The position numbers and the translations under genes are program-made. From contig CAIPEB010000573.1 in the NCBI GenBank assembly GCA_903863885.1, positions 1 through 64,000 of the forward strand: a stretch of DNA of 64,000 bases, written 5' to 3'. Source of the stretch: an uncultured Planctomycetaceae bacterium. GTDB lineage: Bacteria; Planctomycetota; Planctomycetia; Pirellulales; Pirellulaceae. Of the stretch, positions 2,008 through 7,601 are shown in pieces. Every line of letters starts with the position of its first letter. The stretch's first letter is position 1. The notes under the pieces are model-generated. The model saw only the letters and a list, made by a program, of their open reading frames with translations. It was not told where the DNA came from and made no database searches.

Positions 2008-2814
2008 TTACGGTGCCGGTTCGAACGTGAACGGCACGCCGTGTTCGAGTTCGCGGTAACGTTCGCCGATCCCTTCGAGCTTCATATTGGTGCGGAGCAG
2101 TTGCGGGGGCAGCGAATTGTCGCGGAACAGATCGTAATGGCAGGGGACGACGAAGCGCGCGTTCAGATCGCGTCCGAGACGCGCGGCTTCGGCGGGCGAC
2201 AGGTTGCGGAAGGCGCCGTTGATGACCGCGACGAGCACGTCGGGGTGATCGGGAGCGGCGGCGTGGGCGAGCACTTCGTGGTAGCCCGTGTCACCCGTGA
2301 AGTAGACCGAGACGCCGCCTTCCACGCCGACGACGTAGCCCACGTGCGTGAGGTCGTCGGCGCCGAGCGGGATCGCGAAGGTGGTTCGGATGCGCACGTC
2401 CCCGACGCGATGCACCTTGTTCGGCCACATCATGTGAATCTCGTCCCGGGGAACGCCCAGTTGAACGAGCCGATCAACCGTCTCCGGCGGCGCGACGTAG
2501 GGCCCTTGGCCGCCGGCGTCGCGATACCCGGCCAGCGTCTCCGGGTCGAGGTGATCGCCGTGGCTGTGCGTCATCGCATACAGATCCACGCCGGCAAGAT
2601 CCCGAGGCGCAAGCGGCGCCGGGACGAGGCGGTCCATGTCGAATCCCGCCCCGTCTCCGATGGCCTTGCACGAGTTGGTCAGATAGGGATCGACCGCGAC
2701 GATTTTCCCCTCGGGGCTCTTGAGCAGATAGCCGGCCTGCCCGAGCCACCACAGGGTGACCGAACGCGGAGGAACCCGGAAACGTCGAACATCGTCGAGC
2801 GAAATGGGCTGCAT
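2008..2814 (-). CDS. UlaG-like metallo-beta-lactamase-fold hydrolase (putative sugar-acid lactonase)
   Basis: This 268-residue protein has the metallo-beta-lactamase metal motif THSHGDH, a later FTGDTGYH segment and a PCHYDLFRDN segment. Together these resemble UlaG, the L-ascorbate-6-phosphate lactonase, more than classical lactamases or RNase Z. The N-terminal WWLGQAGYLLKS stretch is also typical of UlaG relatives. No signal peptide is seen, so it is probably cytoplasmic. It starts 9 bases after the cupin gene and precedes the GH38-like gene in the same operon. A lactone-opening step in sugar oxidation would fit the SDR genes nearby, but that is inference. The true substrate cannot be told from sequence. 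Confidence 0.85.
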   Translation of the reverse strand: MQPISLDDVRRFRVPPRSVTLWWLGQAGYLLKSPEGKIVAVDPYLTNSCKAIGDGAGFDMDRLVPAPLAPRDLAGVDLYAMTHSHGDHLDPETLAGYRDAGGQGPYVAPPETVDRLVQLGVPRDEIHMMWPNKVHRVGDVRIRTTFAIPLGADDLTHVGYVVGVEGGVSVYFTGDTGYHEVLAHAAAPDHPDVLVAVINGAFRNLSPAEAARLGRDLNARFVVPCHYDLFRDNSLPPQLLRTNMKLEGIGERYRELEHGVPFTFEPAP

Positions 2815-2823
2815 GGGCGAACC

Positions 2824-3246
2824 TCAGGGATTGGGAGGCGATGTGGCGATCAGCACGACGAGCGGCACATTGCCCGTGTTCTCGATGCCGTGAACGCACC
2901 ACGGCGGCAGGTACACGAAGTCGCCTTTGCTCACGTCCCGCTGGTAATGAGCGAACGTCATGCGCCCGCTTCCCTCGAGAATCACGTAGGTTTCTTCCGT
3001 CTCGTGCGAGCCCGGTTCGAGTATGGCGTGCGGCGGGACGTAGAACATGACCAGTCCCAGATTCCGGGACGGCGCGTTGGGATTGACCGGGTGAACGACG
3101 CGCACGCCGAGTCCGTGGCAGCCCGGATACGAGACCGGGACGCCGTCCTGGACCGTGACGATCATCGGGTCCGGCGGCACGCTCGGCTTGGGAATCTTGG
3201 GCTGTTCTTCTCCCTTGTAACCTTGGAACATCGTGATCTTGGCCAT
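2824..3246 (-). CDS. Cupin-domain protein
   Basis: A 140-residue single-domain cupin. The start is taken at ATG 3246 (MAKITMFQGY); the frame is open further upstream, but that part overlaps the SDR gene. The first cupin motif is seen around HETEETYVILEGSGRM and the second around GDFVYLPPWCVHGIEN, with His and Glu positions suited to a metal site. It sits between an SDR (11 bases) and the UlaG-like hydrolase (9 bases), so translation is probably coupled. Small cupins in sugar operons are often isomerases or lyases, or bind effectors. No specific reaction can be assigned. Confidence 0.85.
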   Translation of the reverse strand: MAKITMFQGYKGEEQPKIPKPSVPPDPMIVTVQDGVPVSYPGCHGLGVRVVHPVNPNAPSRNLGLVMFYVPPHAILEPGSHETEETYVILEGSGRMTFAHYQRDVSKGDFVYLPPWCVHGIENTGNVPLVVLIATSPPNP

Positions 3247-3257
3247 TTGATTTCCTT

Positions 3258-4040
3258 TCAGAATTCGCGAGCGTATCCAGCCAGCCAGCCGCCGTCCACC
3301 GTCAAAACGGACCCGTTGATGTAACTCGCCTGCGGCGATGCGAGGAACAGCACAGCATGTGCAACTTCTTCCGGAGTGCCGGGGCGTCCCAGCGGCACGT
3401 GAGCCAGCATCCGCTGCACGGATTCGCGGAACAGGCCGTCGTCGCCGTAGAACAGTTTCTTGGTTCCTTCGGTCAGGATCGATCCGGGTGCGATCGCGTT
3501 GACGGTAACGCCCTCGCGGCCCAGTTCCAATGCCATGGCCTTGGTCAGGTTGATGACGCCGGCCTTCGCCGCCACGAATGCGCACTGCAGACGCAGCGGG
3601 ACAAGCCCCGCGATCGACGAGATGTTGATGATCCGGCCAAATGACTGTTTGCGCATGATCGCTCCGGCCGTGCGGCTGACCAGGTACAGCCCGGTCAGAT
3701 CGACATCGACGATCCGGTCCCATTCCTCGCGGGGGAACTCGTCGATCGGCACGCGGTGATGCAGCGTGTTCACTCCGGCATTGTTGATGACGATGTCGAG
3801 TTGCCCGTGGCGGTCGGCGATGTCGGTCACGACCTGACGCACCTGGGATTCATCTCGCACGTCCATGAACGCCGAGTGGCAATTCGCGGAGCGGGCGGCG
3901 GCCGCCTTGGCTCCCTCCACATCGACGTCCGTGTAATGGACGATGGCTCCATTAGCGGCCAGCGAATCGGCGATGGCCTGGCCGATGCCGTGCGCCGCTC
4001 CGGTGACCAGCGCGACCCTGTTGGTTAGATCGACATTCAT
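3258..4040 (-). CDS. Short-chain dehydrogenase/reductase with Phe at the catalytic Tyr position
   Basis: A classical-length SDR of 260 residues starting at MNVDLTNR (ATG 4040). An earlier in-frame ATG at 4070 would overlap the upstream gene. The NAD(P) motif VTGAAHGIGQ, the NNAG motif and the ISSIAG serine are present. The usual YxxxK reads FVAAK (F155, K159), so the proton-donating Tyr is missing. The C-terminal PGSILTEGT and GSVLTVDGGW segments are normal. It lies 5 bases after the DUF6786-like gene, inside the sugar operon. A sugar dehydrogenase role would fit the context, but the Phe makes ordinary SDR catalysis uncertain. Confidence 0.85.
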   Translation of the reverse strand: MNVDLTNRVALVTGAAHGIGQAIADSLAANGAIVHYTDVDVEGAKAAAARSANCHSAFMDVRDESQVRQVVTDIADRHGQLDIVINNAGVNTLHHRVPIDEFPREEWDRIVDVDLTGLYLVSRTAGAIMRKQSFGRIINISSIAGLVPLRLQCAFVAAKAGVINLTKAMALELGREGVTVNAIAPGSILTEGTKKLFYGDDGLFRESVQRMLAHVPLGRPGTPEEVAHAVLFLASPQASYINGSVLTVDGGWLAGYAREF

Positions 4041-4045
4041 GCGAC

Positions 4046-5125
4046 TTATTGCTCCCTGATCAGCAGGCACGAGACGATTTCATCGATTTCTTCACGACTG
4101 CCGCGAAACGCCCAGGTCTGACAGACATCGGCGCAGCGGTTGCGGCCGGTTCCCGGACCCACGGCGGGAACATGATACTCCATCTCGGCGAAGGACCCCA
4201 AAGCACTGTTGACGTTGCAGATCTGGATTGCGTATCCGCGATCATCGGGTTCGGTCCACGGGACGTCTTCGTAATCGCCCGACGGATCGATGCACGCGTT
4301 GCGGATCAGCAGCGCCCATTTGCCCGAGGATGTCCGGTAGCGGTAGCCGACCCGGCCTGTTGCCGCGGCTGCTCGGACGGCGAACTTGAATTCGCCTTGG
4401 GCCCGCATGTGGAACAGGACCAGCCCGTCGCGGGTTTCGACATCGCCCGGGGGCGGCGAACCGAAGAAGAGCTTCGGTTCGCTGCGGCCGTAGGTCGGGA
4501 CGAGCAGGTCCCCGCCGTGGGGCATCTGGACCAGATTCCATAATCCGACCCGCTGCTCGCCCGAGAGCAGGTCGATCGAGCTTGTCAGCCGGTATCCGGC
4601 GTATTCGACTTTGGACAACCGCGAAAAACAGCTTTCATGTCGCAGCGGATTCGCGGCGGCACCGAGGACCCGCCTGAGTTCCATTTCGACGTCGGCTTTC
4701 GATCGCGTGAGGCGGCAGGTCAGTCGATTTACGAGGCTGACCGTTTCCGTTTCCCGCGTGAGTTGCCATTGGCCCGGATCGAGCTGGCGCGGCTGGAAAT
4801 AGACGTCGGTGCTCGGATAGTTCGGAAAGAAGAAATCGACTTCGGGTGCGAGCCAGAGCCGATCGCCGCCCGAGTTGTGCCATTCGGAACCGGCGTAGAA
4901 CTCGGCCGCGCTCGAGGTCTGTTCGAGGCACGGATGCGACCAGAAGAAATTCTCGGCGCTGCCCGGCGCGAACAGCCCCAGCACGCGGCCTCCGTGGGGC
5001 AGGATCAGCAGCTCCGAGCCGTCGCCCGTCAAGAACTCGCACGTCGGCTTTCCGGCGTCCGTCAACGTCTGGACAAGAGGGCGGTGCATGGTTGTCTCCG
5101 GACGGGTTGTCGCCGGTTCGCTCAT
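4046..5125 (-). CDS. DUF6786-like protein, sugar-operon member of unknown function
   Basis: A 359-residue protein without signal peptide or membrane segments. A second possible start, MHRPLVQ, lies 12 codons in. It is rich in aromatic residues (FFWSHP, EVDFFFPNYP, WHNSGGDRLW), as in carbohydrate-handling beta-sandwich folds such as mutarotase-like domains. I recall similar planctomycete proteins under DUF6786, but the match is tentative. It is the first gene of the tight minus-strand operon and is followed after only 5 bases by the SDR. No catalytic residues can be named. Confidence 0.7.
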   Translation of the reverse strand: MSEPATTRPETTMHRPLVQTLTDAGKPTCEFLTGDGSELLILPHGGRVLGLFAPGSAENFFWSHPCLEQTSSAAEFYAGSEWHNSGGDRLWLAPEVDFFFPNYPSTDVYFQPRQLDPGQWQLTRETETVSLVNRLTCRLTRSKADVEMELRRVLGAAANPLRHESCFSRLSKVEYAGYRLTSSIDLLSGEQRVGLWNLVQMPHGGDLLVPTYGRSEPKLFFGSPPPGDVETRDGLVLFHMRAQGEFKFAVRAAAATGRVGYRYRTSSGKWALLIRNACIDPSGDYEDVPWTEPDDRGYAIQICNVNSALGSFAEMEYHVPAVGPGTGRNRCADVCQTWAFRGSREEIDEIVSCLLIREQ

Positions 5126-5220
5126 GAATCGAGTAGTCTGCGCCGGCTCTTGATAAATCGGTGTATTAGGATTTTAGGCCGTTAGGTATATCGAAAAAAA
5201 TCCAAATTGGTCAATTCGTT

Positions 5221-5246
5221 GGTGTGCCACTGGCTCCGCCAGTGTT
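5221..5246 (+). repeat. REP-like palindromic unit, copy 1
   Basis: A 26-base unit built around cactggc-tcc-gccagtg, a 7-base stem with a 3-base loop, preceded by ggtgtgc. The reverse complement of this unit recurs at 5323-5348 with a single difference in the loop. The arrangement is that of two REP units in a BIME-type element. Transcribed, each would form a small hairpin. Confidence 0.8.
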
Positions 5247-5322
5247 CTGTGTCGTTCCTCGGACATTAGCTTGACTTGTAACGCGTCTGATTCAGGAGGT
5301 TTGGTCCGGAGTGCTGCCCGTC

Positions 5323-5348
5323 AACACTGGCAGAGCCAGTGGCACACC
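5323..5348 (-). repeat. REP-like palindromic unit, copy 2 (inverted)
   Basis: Inverted copy of the unit at 5221-5246, reading cactggc-aga-gccagtg on the plus strand and followed by gcacacc. The two copies are 76 bases apart. No RAYT (REP-associated tyrosine transposase) gene is present in the window, so mobilisation would have to act in trans. Confidence 0.8.
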
Positions 5349-5490
5349 GGCCAAGGACACGGTTAAGGAGTAGGATATGCTGGCCGTGCCGCACCGCCGG
5401 GTTTCTGTAACGCATCGGCCGCACGCCAGCATCCGCCGATTCGTTACGTTGTCTCGTCGTTTTGCCGTTAGATCTTAATAGTTAACGCTA

Positions 5491-6729
5491 TTAGCTTTTA
5501 GTAAGGGTATTTCCGAATGCCATCACGACCGCGGCGGCGACGAGGATCGCAATCGCCGCGTACATCTGGACGCGGGGCTTGCCGTGAACGCCCTTCCATT
5601 CGCCGCTGATAAATCCCAGCAGTTGAGTGCCCGTCATCTGCATCGCCTGCTGAATGCCGAAGCCGACCGAGGCGCCCAGCGCGCCGAGCAGCAGCATGCC
5701 CTCGCCCATCAGTGCGGAAGCGAGGCTGAAGTTGACGCCGATCAACACGGCCAGGAACAGTTCGCGGCCGCTCTGCACGAGCACGCCCCACGACTTGTTC
5801 TTGCGCAGCAGGTGAGCGGCGTAAGCCAGGTTCACCAGGGCGCCGCCCATCAGTCCGACGGCGAACACGCCGAAGGTCGGCGGGATCTGTCCGGTCTGCA
5901 CAAGCACGGAACCCTTGCCCGGTGCCGGCGCAGTACTCAGTTGCTGTTCGATGCGATCCGCGACTTGGCGTGCGCTGATTCCGGCAACGGGCAGCGGGTC
6001 CATTCCGGGGAGCGCCAGTATCCCTTTCTCGGACACCGCGTGCGAGCCCGACAGGTCGTCGCGCCCGTCGATCGAGACCGTGATGCTGGTGGACGGCTGG
6101 ATGATGCTCAGATTGGAGACGATCGGATCCTGGCTGTATACGAAGGCAAATGCCATGAACGACGACAGGATGCCGGCCGCGACGGTCATCAGCAGTCCGG
6201 TCAGAAATCCGCCGGAGAGCGATTCCTGCTGCTTCTTCAGTTCGCGATCCCGTCCGAATCCCGCAAGAGAGGCGATGAGCACTCCGACGAGCATCAGAGC
6301 CACGGCGGCGCAGACGGTCAGGCCGGCCGGGGAATTCAGGTCGGCCGCGCTGCGGAACAGGCCCGAACCCTTGAAGATCATCGGCGTGATCGCTCCGACG
6401 GAAACGCCGAGCCCCGCGAGAATCGCGCCCGTCAGGGCCACTCCGATCCGCACGTAGCAGAGGCCGCAGAGCACGTTAGCGATGCCCCAGCCGACCGCGA
6501 ACAGATTGCCCAGCAGGATGGCGCTGAGCGGCACGCGGCTGAGCGACTGCAGCGCATTCGGGCAGCCCAGCAGGGTGATGCCCCACGGCATGATCACGAG
6601 TCCGACCAGCATGCCGATGAACCACCAGTGTTCAAAACGGTACTGTCGCATGAGCTTGAATGGCCAGACGCCGCTGCCCATGATCAGCCCGCCCAGCGCG
6701 ACCACCAGCAGTCCCCAAGCCGCCGTCAT
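5491..6729 (-). CDS. RhaT-like sugar-proton symporter with an inserted Poly_export-like domain
   Basis: A 412-residue multi-pass membrane protein of the L-rhamnose-H+ symporter (RhaT) type within the DMT superfamily. Ten hydrophobic segments can be counted. The N-terminus GSGVWPFKLMRQYRFEHWWF and the C-terminal half resemble RhaT. E. coli RhaT is 344 residues, so this one is about 70 longer. The excess lies after TM6 at about residues 213-279: ITVSIDGRDDLSG, then GILALPGMDPLPVAG, then ISARQVADRIEQQL. That order matches the polysaccharide biosynthesis/export (Wza-like) domain. The loop before TM6 is Lys/Arg-rich and probably cytoplasmic, which puts the insert outside the membrane. It lies 29 bases after the SDR at 6759. 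Likely role: uptake of a deoxy- or related sugar. Confidence 0.82.
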   Translation of the reverse strand: MTAAWGLLVVALGGLIMGSGVWPFKLMRQYRFEHWWFIGMLVGLVIMPWGITLLGCPNALQSLSRVPLSAILLGNLFAVGWGIANVLCGLCYVRIGVALTGAILAGLGVSVGAITPMIFKGSGLFRSAADLNSPAGLTVCAAVALMLVGVLIASLAGFGRDRELKKQQESLSGGFLTGLLMTVAAGILSSFMAFAFVYSQDPIVSNLSIIQPSTSITVSIDGRDDLSGSHAVSEKGILALPGMDPLPVAGISARQVADRIEQQLSTAPAPGKGSVLVQTGQIPPTFGVFAVGLMGGALVNLAYAAHLLRKNKSWGVLVQSGRELFLAVLIGVNFSLASALMGEGMLLLGALGASVGFGIQQAMQMTGTQLLGFISGEWKGVHGKPRVQMYAAIAILVAAAVVMAFGNTLTKS

Positions 6730-6758
6730 CTTGTGCTCCTTCAGCAGTGAAGCGGATA

Positions 6759-7601
6759 TCAGACGCCGGGCACATAGCCCGTGCCGAATCGCGCGGTTGA
6801 TTCATTCCGGAAATCGGAGATCAGCGACATCAGCGCCGTCGTGCCGCCGTCGGCGACGATCGTCTGGCCGATGATGAACTCGGCGTCGTCGCTGCAGAGA
6901 AAGACAGCGAGCTTCGCGATGTCGAGGGGAGCGCCCGGACGCGCCACGGGCACCGAGGTCTTGGCCGCTTCCCTCGCGGCATCGTCCTGGAAGCCGGGAA
7001 TGGCGCGATAATAGTTATCGACCGTGACCCAACCCGGGGCGATGGCGTTCAGGCGGATTCCCTTGTGGGCCAGTTCCACCGCCAGCGCCCGGGTGTAGGC
7101 AATGATCGCACCCTTCGTGCCGGCATACAGGGAATGCTCGGGTGCTCCCTGTAATCCGTGGATCGACGTGATATTGCAGATGGTCCCGCCGCCGCGCGTC
7201 AGCATGTCCCGCACGACCCGCTGCGTCAGGAAGTACTGCGCCCGCCAATTGACGTGGAACAGCAGATCGAACTGCTCGGGGGTTACCTGCAGGAACGGCT
7301 TGTTCAGCGTGATGCCGGAGTTGTTTACCAGACAGTCCAGACCGCCGAGGAACTCGATCGCTTTCTCGGCCAACTCGACGGGCTTCTCGCAGCTGTCGAA
7401 ATCCGCGGCGAAGGCTTCCGCTTTGCGGCCCCACGAGCGGATCTCCGCGGCCGTTTCCTCCGCACCTTTTCCACTGTGGGCATAATGCAGCGCGACGTCG
7501 GCCCCCTGGCGGGCAAACTCGCGGGCAATCTCCCGGCCGATACCGGTTCCCGAGCCCGTGACGAGTACGCGTTTGCCGGCCAGTCTTGCGCCAGTGTCCA
7601 T
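6759..7601 (-). CDS. Short-chain dehydrogenase/reductase (SDR)
   Basis: A 280-residue classical SDR starting at MDTGARLAGK. A GGAGG ribosome site sits 8 bases upstream of ATG 7601, which rules out the longer open frame. Motifs visible are VTGSGTGIGRE (nucleotide binding), NNSG, an ITSIHG serine and the catalytic pair YAGTK. PGWVTVDNYY and GQTIVADGG follow. Unlike the SDR at 3258, all catalytic residues are present. It is the first gene before the RhaT-like permease (29 bases), so the pair may import and oxidise the same sugar. Cofactor and substrate are not determinable here. Confidence 0.88.
   Translation of the reverse strand: MDTGARLAGKRVLVTGSGTGIGREIAREFARQGADVALHYAHSGKGAEETAAEIRSWGRKAEAFAADFDSCEKPVELAEKAIEFLGGLDCLVNNSGITLNKPFLQVTPEQFDLLFHVNWRAQYFLTQRVVRDMLTRGGGTICNITSIHGLQGAPEHSLYAGTKGAIIAYTRALAVELAHKGIRLNAIAPGWVTVDNYYRAIPGFQDDAAREAAKTSVPVARPGAPLDIAKLAVFLCSDDAEFIIGQTIVADGGTTALMSLISDFRNESTARFGTGYVPGV

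Follow-up and report, generated by a model that had tools for sequence, protein, structure and literature searches.

A Poly_export domain between two membrane helices of a RhaT-family permease in Planctomycetota

The Poly_export domain (PF02563) is the shared mark of OPX proteins such as Wza and the class-3 protein WzaB, and the accessible portions of two surveys describe its use to find them (PMC9603273, PMC9601211). According to the part of the first survey available, OPX proteins share a Poly_export domain followed by at least one SLBB domain, with Poly_export at the N-terminus of a secreted protein or lipoprotein (PMC9603273); the available part of the second also names polysaccharide biosynthesis genes nearby as a criterion (PMC9601211). 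In the Wza-Wzc complex the forearm of Wzc contacts domain D1 of Wza, and deletion of D1 loses the co-localisation pattern, as far as the accessible text of that study goes (PMC12881504). We found no published account of a protein combining RhaT with Poly_export in the PMC open-licence full text.

Here we describe such a protein from an uncultured Planctomycetaceae bacterium. The window, by which we mean the whole stretch of DNA analysed, comprises 64,000 nucleotides of contig CAIPEB010000573.1 and encodes on its minus strand a permease of 412 residues (5491-6729), defined by its open reading frame, Pfam matches, AlphaFold2 model and structural alignment. The protein is a RhaT-family transporter with a DMT fold. 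Residues 21-197 match the RhaT family PF06379 at 60.6 bits (gathering cut-off 27 bits), and the same family was matched in all 17 members of our alignment at E up to 1. The NCBIfam equivalogs for the L-rhamnose/proton symporter RhaT have cut-offs of 369-523 bits, and the best of the four matched reached 136.4 bits against a cut-off of 369; with scores so far below the cut-offs, the substrate of the window permease need not be rhamnose. By sequence, the whole permease has no relative in the PDB at E up to 1. In its AlphaFold2 model, built on the 17-sequence alignment (pLDDT 84.0, pTM 0.79), the membrane part superposes on LicB (Z 23.8 over 249 residues, rmsd 2.9) and YddG (Z 19.6), which gives the predicted structure the fold of the DMT superfamily. 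The count of ten helices is our own reading, TM8 and TM9 forming one run (residues 321-374) in the model. According to the predicted secondary structure, TM6 (residues 175-207; 6109-6207, minus strand) is broken at residue 190 and passes straight into the first strand of the insert described below, and TM7 (residues 283-310; 5800-5883, minus strand) is broken at residue 293.

Alignment with relatives places the insert at residues 203-283 (5881-6123, minus strand), where it replaces a TM6-TM7 loop of 14 residues. In the whole protein PF02563 matches residues 209-266 at 27.7 bits (E 3.1e-6), which is 0.3 bits below the gathering cut-off of 28 bits; the insert by itself scores 32.2 bits (E 1.3e-7), above that cut-off, and belongs to the family. 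Whole-protein scans of nine insert-bearing proteins, L133 being left out, gave PF02563 at E 7.1e-5 or better in eight, and at more than 28 bits in five, all five among the eight other than the window protein. The best score, 45.3 bits (E 1e-11), is that of L036, and the insert of L035 has no Pfam match to PF02563. Comparison with OPX domains native to these genomes points the same way: a profile of nine inserts aligned to a profile of 13 such domains with probability 97.1 (E 7.8e-11), and an HMM of the 13 domains scored eight of the nine inserts at 18.1-36.2 bits, while the best of 1800 shuffles, 1747 of which were reported, reached 9.2. With the same HMM the L035 insert scored 5.3 bits, below that shuffle maximum. 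It has drifted past detection by PF02563, which could reflect decay in that protein. In the reverse direction, an HMM of the inserts run on a small set of open reading frames recovered the OPX-type proteins L018 (E 1.3e-12), which has the ordinary architecture of Poly_export plus SLBB, and L019 (E 1.1e-10). A match to SLBB is seen in L018 and in the OPX protein L001; Pfam reports neither SLBB, searched at E up to 10, nor Wza_C in the window permease.

The predicted structure agrees with the sequence profiles. An AlphaFold2 model of the insert alone, built from nine sequences (pLDDT 74.9, pTM 0.59), has the Poly_export (PES/D1) fold, that is, the fold of Wza D1. Foldseek ranked WzaB and Wza entries first to tenth for this model (best E 1.0e-4, TM 0.80 by query), the next row having E 1.7. 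Against the PDB, a structural aligner superposed it on class-3 OPX WzaB over 74 residues (Z 12.6, rmsd 1.8) and on residues 84-169 of Wza (Z 10.3), the first unrelated row having Z 3.9. Within the model of the whole permease, residues 208-279 (5893-6108, minus strand) match WzaB with Z 12.2, and we take these residues as the PES domain, as delimited by Pfam, the AlphaFold2 model, Foldseek and the structural aligner. Thus, the TM6-TM7 insert is a complete and genuine Poly_export domain.

The first-pass annotation of this sequence had proposed that about 67 residues with the order of the Poly_export family were gained after TM6, at 5893-6093, between membrane segments that stay RhaT-like. All of this is borne out. 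The insert is 81 residues long where seven of eight insert-less relatives have a loop of 14, a net gain of exactly 67; the proposed interval falls within the structurally matched domain; and the flanking segments are RhaT-like by Pfam, by alignment and by the DMT fold of the whole model. Neither of the two outcomes it had named as refuting came about: PF02563 matches, with a whole-protein score just under the curated threshold, and the objection that ordinary RhaT proteins might carry the same loop fails on the short loop of those seven close relatives.

Relatives were collected by a scan of GTDB genome contigs that yielded 16 loci; the scan needs exact short peptides, and relatives can be missed. 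Eight of the 16 loci carry the insert (L035-L041 and L048), seven have the 14-residue loop (L042, L043, L045, L046, L047, L049 and L050), and the insert-less L044 has a different loop of 41 residues. Duplicate contigs filed under other handles (L006, L051, L056, L067, L068 and others) were not recounted. A further insert-bearing protein, L133, comes from a genome related to those of L036 and L038 and shares 409 of 424 residues with L038. Including the window, the count is ten insert-bearing proteins from nine genomes, as L039 and L048 belong to the same genome. The reading frame is open in all ten, and the nine aligned inserts are 78-87 residues long. A third copy may be present in genome G868, where a contig end cuts the gene before the loop.

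All named insert-bearing records are metagenome-assembled genomes of Planctomycetota. Of 392 genomes sampled from the phylum, 2 yielded an insert-bearing protein, as did 4 of 396 sampled from the order; a subset of the candidates in each genome was scored, which makes both counts lower bounds. The named records among the insert-less relatives with the short loop (the seven above and L135) belong to Armatimonadota, Verrucomicrobiota and Planctomycetota; L135 also has a 14-residue loop and is 65-71% identical to the window protein. As far as we have searched, the RhaT plus PES architecture joins two known parts in a new way, is rare and is confined to Planctomycetota.

Other long insertions occur in RhaT-like proteins of the same order. 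Three of these proteins have long inserts between TM6 and TM7, at residues of about 245-375 (L081), 253-327 (L082) and 206-320 (L083), and two RhaT-family proteins (L093 and L095) have gained about 130-140 residues between TM2 and TM3. Ten proteins scanned for such inserts gave no Pfam family above cut-off except RhaT, and the other long inserts gave no match to the HMM of the PES inserts at E up to 10. In these bacteria, the loops of RhaT may be hot spots of insertion.

Next, we considered how the insert arose and how it evolves. In a tree of 37 proteins computed with the insert removed and L010 left out, eight of the ten insert-bearing rows form one supported clade (100/96), whose neighbour is the insert-less L135 (92/94), and L040 and L041 form a separate pair outside it. 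The distribution of the insert on this tree needs two changes; one change suffices in 10% of 200 bootstrap trees, and a single insert-bearing clade is not rejected (p-AU 0.195). The PES domain was probably inserted once or possibly twice. The tree by itself cannot tell gain from loss, but the loop of L135 resembles the loops of distant insert-less proteins, which speaks against a loss in L135.

Among the nine aligned insert-bearing proteins the membrane part is on average 64.8% identical (55-78%) and the insert 34.9% (25-55%). Between insert-bearing and insert-lacking proteins, L044 left out, the membrane part is 58.5% identical on average. For the close pair L038 and L133, the only pair for which omega was estimated, it is 0.47 in the insert, with a wide bootstrap range (0.15-1.63), against 0.054 (0.014-0.12) outside it. 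Four columns (I1, V30, G34 and A51) are invariant in the nine inserts. Column identity averages 0.64 and 0.42 for the two linkers, compared with 0.31 for the PES domain. The conserved hydrophobic columns follow the alternation expected of strands and a helix, and most other positions vary; the apparent core was judged from this sequence pattern. On this evidence, the insert keeps its fold while evolving fast.

The permease lies in a conserved operon, all genes of which are on the minus strand. Its upstream neighbour is the short-chain dehydrogenase gene SDR1 (6759-7601; start chosen by similarity to relatives). On the other side lies a DUF6786-type gene (4046-5125), whose product is 54% identical to the L038 protein matching DUF6786 and itself has no Pfam match at 1e-5. 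Operon comparison identified the genes that follow as a second short-chain dehydrogenase, SDR2 (3258-4070), a cupin protein of 140 residues (2824-3246) and a metallo-beta-lactamase-fold protein (2008-2814). Positions 2-1963, downstream of the operon, encode a protein whose N-terminus is signal-like and which weakly matches the glycosyl hydrolase 38 N-terminal domain (26.2 bits against a cut-off of 25). An inverted repeat (5221-5246 and 5323-5348) with 26-nt arms that are 96% complementary lies between the permease and the DUF6786-type gene. The 11-Mb genome contains 51 copies of its core pattern, 26 of them forward and 25 reverse (control 0), including seven facing pairs with starts exactly 100 bases apart, which indicates a dispersed, MITE-like element.

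The five neighbouring genes are all present at the window, L035, L038 and L137 (the locus of L133), every one of them insert-bearing. L036 and L048 lack only the lactamase-fold gene within the stretch examined, and L037 has SDR1 only, on a 6.9-kb contig. Accordingly, seven of the ten insert-bearing proteins have at least SDR1 of this layout. Much of the layout is also found around proteins without the insert: SDR1 and DUF6786-type genes flank the permease in L043, L044 and L045, as they do in L046 (with SDR2 and lactamase-fold genes), L142 (genome G991; with SDR2) and L144 (genome G895; with SDR2 and cupin genes), and they occur in a different order in L042, L047 and L143 (genome G728). Relatives of both genes lie near six of the eight insert-less proteins with the short loop, the exceptions being L049, which like the insert-bearing L039, L040 and L041 has none of these operon neighbours, and L050, which has only distant matches to operon genes. 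L039, L040 and L041 are instead found near sugar kinases, a melibiase-type hydrolase or a zinc dehydrogenase. The operon of two dehydrogenases, RhaT-like permease, DUF6786-type, cupin and lactamase-fold genes (window 2008-7601; whole or in part at L035, L036, L038, L043-L046, L048, L137, L142 and L144) is conserved in Planctomycetota, and parts of it also occur in Armatimonadota, Abditibacteriota and Verrucomicrobiota. We considered gene context as a pointer to a partner of the insert and rejected it, as no neighbour tracks the insert across loci with and without it. Since the operon is common to both kinds of protein, the PES domain most likely entered a functioning transporter with an existing role in this pathway.

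We then asked on which side of the membrane the insert would lie. Over 17 sequences, lysine and arginine sum (as means per protein) to 13.8 in the odd loops (1-2, 3-4, 5-6, 7-8 and 9-10) and to 3.8 in the termini and loops 2-3, 4-5 and 8-9, the TM6-TM7 loop being left out. This concentration of positive charge in the odd loops, the one basis for the orientation, suggests by the positive-inside rule that the TM6-TM7 loop, and with it the insert, is periplasmic, which supports the outward-facing placement expected by the first-pass annotation. YddG and LicB have their N-terminus inside, and the orientation proposed for the window permease is the opposite. We found no measured topology of RhaT in the PMC open-licence full text.

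Taken together, we propose that a RhaT-family inner-membrane importer of Planctomycetota acquired a complete PES domain in what would be its periplasmic TM6-TM7 loop. The DMT core would still import a sugar for the catabolic operon. As TM6 ends at residue 207 and TM7 starts at residue 283, the domain is tightly held at both ends, and it may form a small rigid cap gripped by the two helices at their outer ends. Such a cap could act on the transporter itself, by affecting its stability or self-association or by shielding the outward mouth. Because the domain retains its fold although most positions outside the apparent core are variable, we hold, with slightly better than even confidence, that the PES domain is an accessory periplasmic cap acting on the transporter and does not dock to one conserved partner.

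Several other explanations have to be weighed against this one. That the insert is a chimeric assembly or a chance similarity might be suspected from the window protein's PF02563 score just under the gathering cut-off, from a window genome split into 789 contigs and from the metagenomic origin of all the named records; we reject this, and give it practically no credence, given the same junction in ten proteins from nine independent genomes and the profile, fold and shuffle results. A near-neutral passenger, a domain that landed in a tolerant loop, folds harmlessly and drifts, would fit an omega about nine times as high in the insert as in the membrane part, an L035 insert without recognisable similarity and a loop that tolerates other long additions in L081, L082 and L083. 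A pure passenger should decay or be deleted, though, and here the frame stays open in ten proteins, length stays near constant and V30, G34 and A51 invariant across the nine inserts in the alignment, and family membership can still be recognised in eight of nine at 25-55% mutual identity; we regard this explanation as unlikely.

Docking would give the domain a more active part: it could recruit the importer to a periplasmic or envelope-spanning assembly and couple uptake to sugar delivery, with an OPX/beta-barrel complex, a Wzc-like helical-arm protein or a surface glycan-degrading system as candidates. The first-pass annotation had gone in this direction with a link from uptake to an envelope channel, a claim that the data do not support: SLBB is not matched in the permease, few positions are conserved outside the apparent core and the linkers, and no sign of a dedicated channel partner appears, with the insert weakly constrained and the operon the same with or without it for seven of ten proteins. 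The single fact in favour of such a link, from the portions of the two studies available, is that the same domain of Wza, D1, in which the PES motif lies (PMC9601211), touches the inner-membrane protein Wzc at its helical-arm forearm (PMC12881504). As for docking in general, the accessible text describes short OPX proteins as pairing with a beta-barrel of the outer membrane (PMC9601211). All seven insert-bearing genomes searched for further PF02563 matches have at least one apart from the permease, and the window's genome has three, an observation that is not specific and covers insert-bearing genomes only. A fast-changing surface co-evolving with a partner would also give the picture that we see in the nine aligned inserts. 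Against docking stand the low identity of the insert, the variability of most positions outside its apparent core, neighbours held in common with insert-less relatives and, among the scanned neighbour proteins (part of the flanking genes), the lack of any OPX, Wzc or barrel family. We consider docking improbable, and still more doubtful the stronger proposal that PES is a portable envelope-docking module that couples import to a periplasm-spanning assembly, as a mirror image of its role in Wza.

Here the Poly_export domain lies inside an inner-membrane importer in the absence of SLBB, so that it can persist as a stand-alone periplasmic module. A survey by PF02563 alone could miscount such importers as export proteins. 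If PES does dock, it would offer planctomycetes a route to tie sugar import to the envelope machinery. Insert-less relatives this close, encoded in the same operon, offer natural controls.

Compared with the OPX proteins Wza and class-3 WzaB, the insert is alike in PES/Poly_export sequence and fold, and the architecture around it differs. SLBB follows Poly_export in OPX proteins, whereas the window permease has no SLBB or Wza_C match; and in place of the N-terminal position in a secreted protein or lipoprotein described in the available part of PMC9603273, its domain is internal, between TM6 and TM7 of an inner-membrane permease. The families among the scanned neighbours, again part of the flanking genes, are SDR, DUF6786, cupin, lactamase-fold and GH38-like. 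Without an SLBB match and with its domain in an internal position, the window permease is not an OPX protein. With RhaT it shares the Pfam match, the DMT fold and an operon with dehydrogenases, and it differs from RhaT in its sub-cut-off equivalog scores and its PES insert. The membrane part of its insert-less RhaT relatives is 46-66% identical to that of the insert-bearing proteins (nine against the first seven), and the difference lies in the TM6-TM7 loop, which has 14 residues and no PES domain in the relatives and holds a complete one in the window permease.
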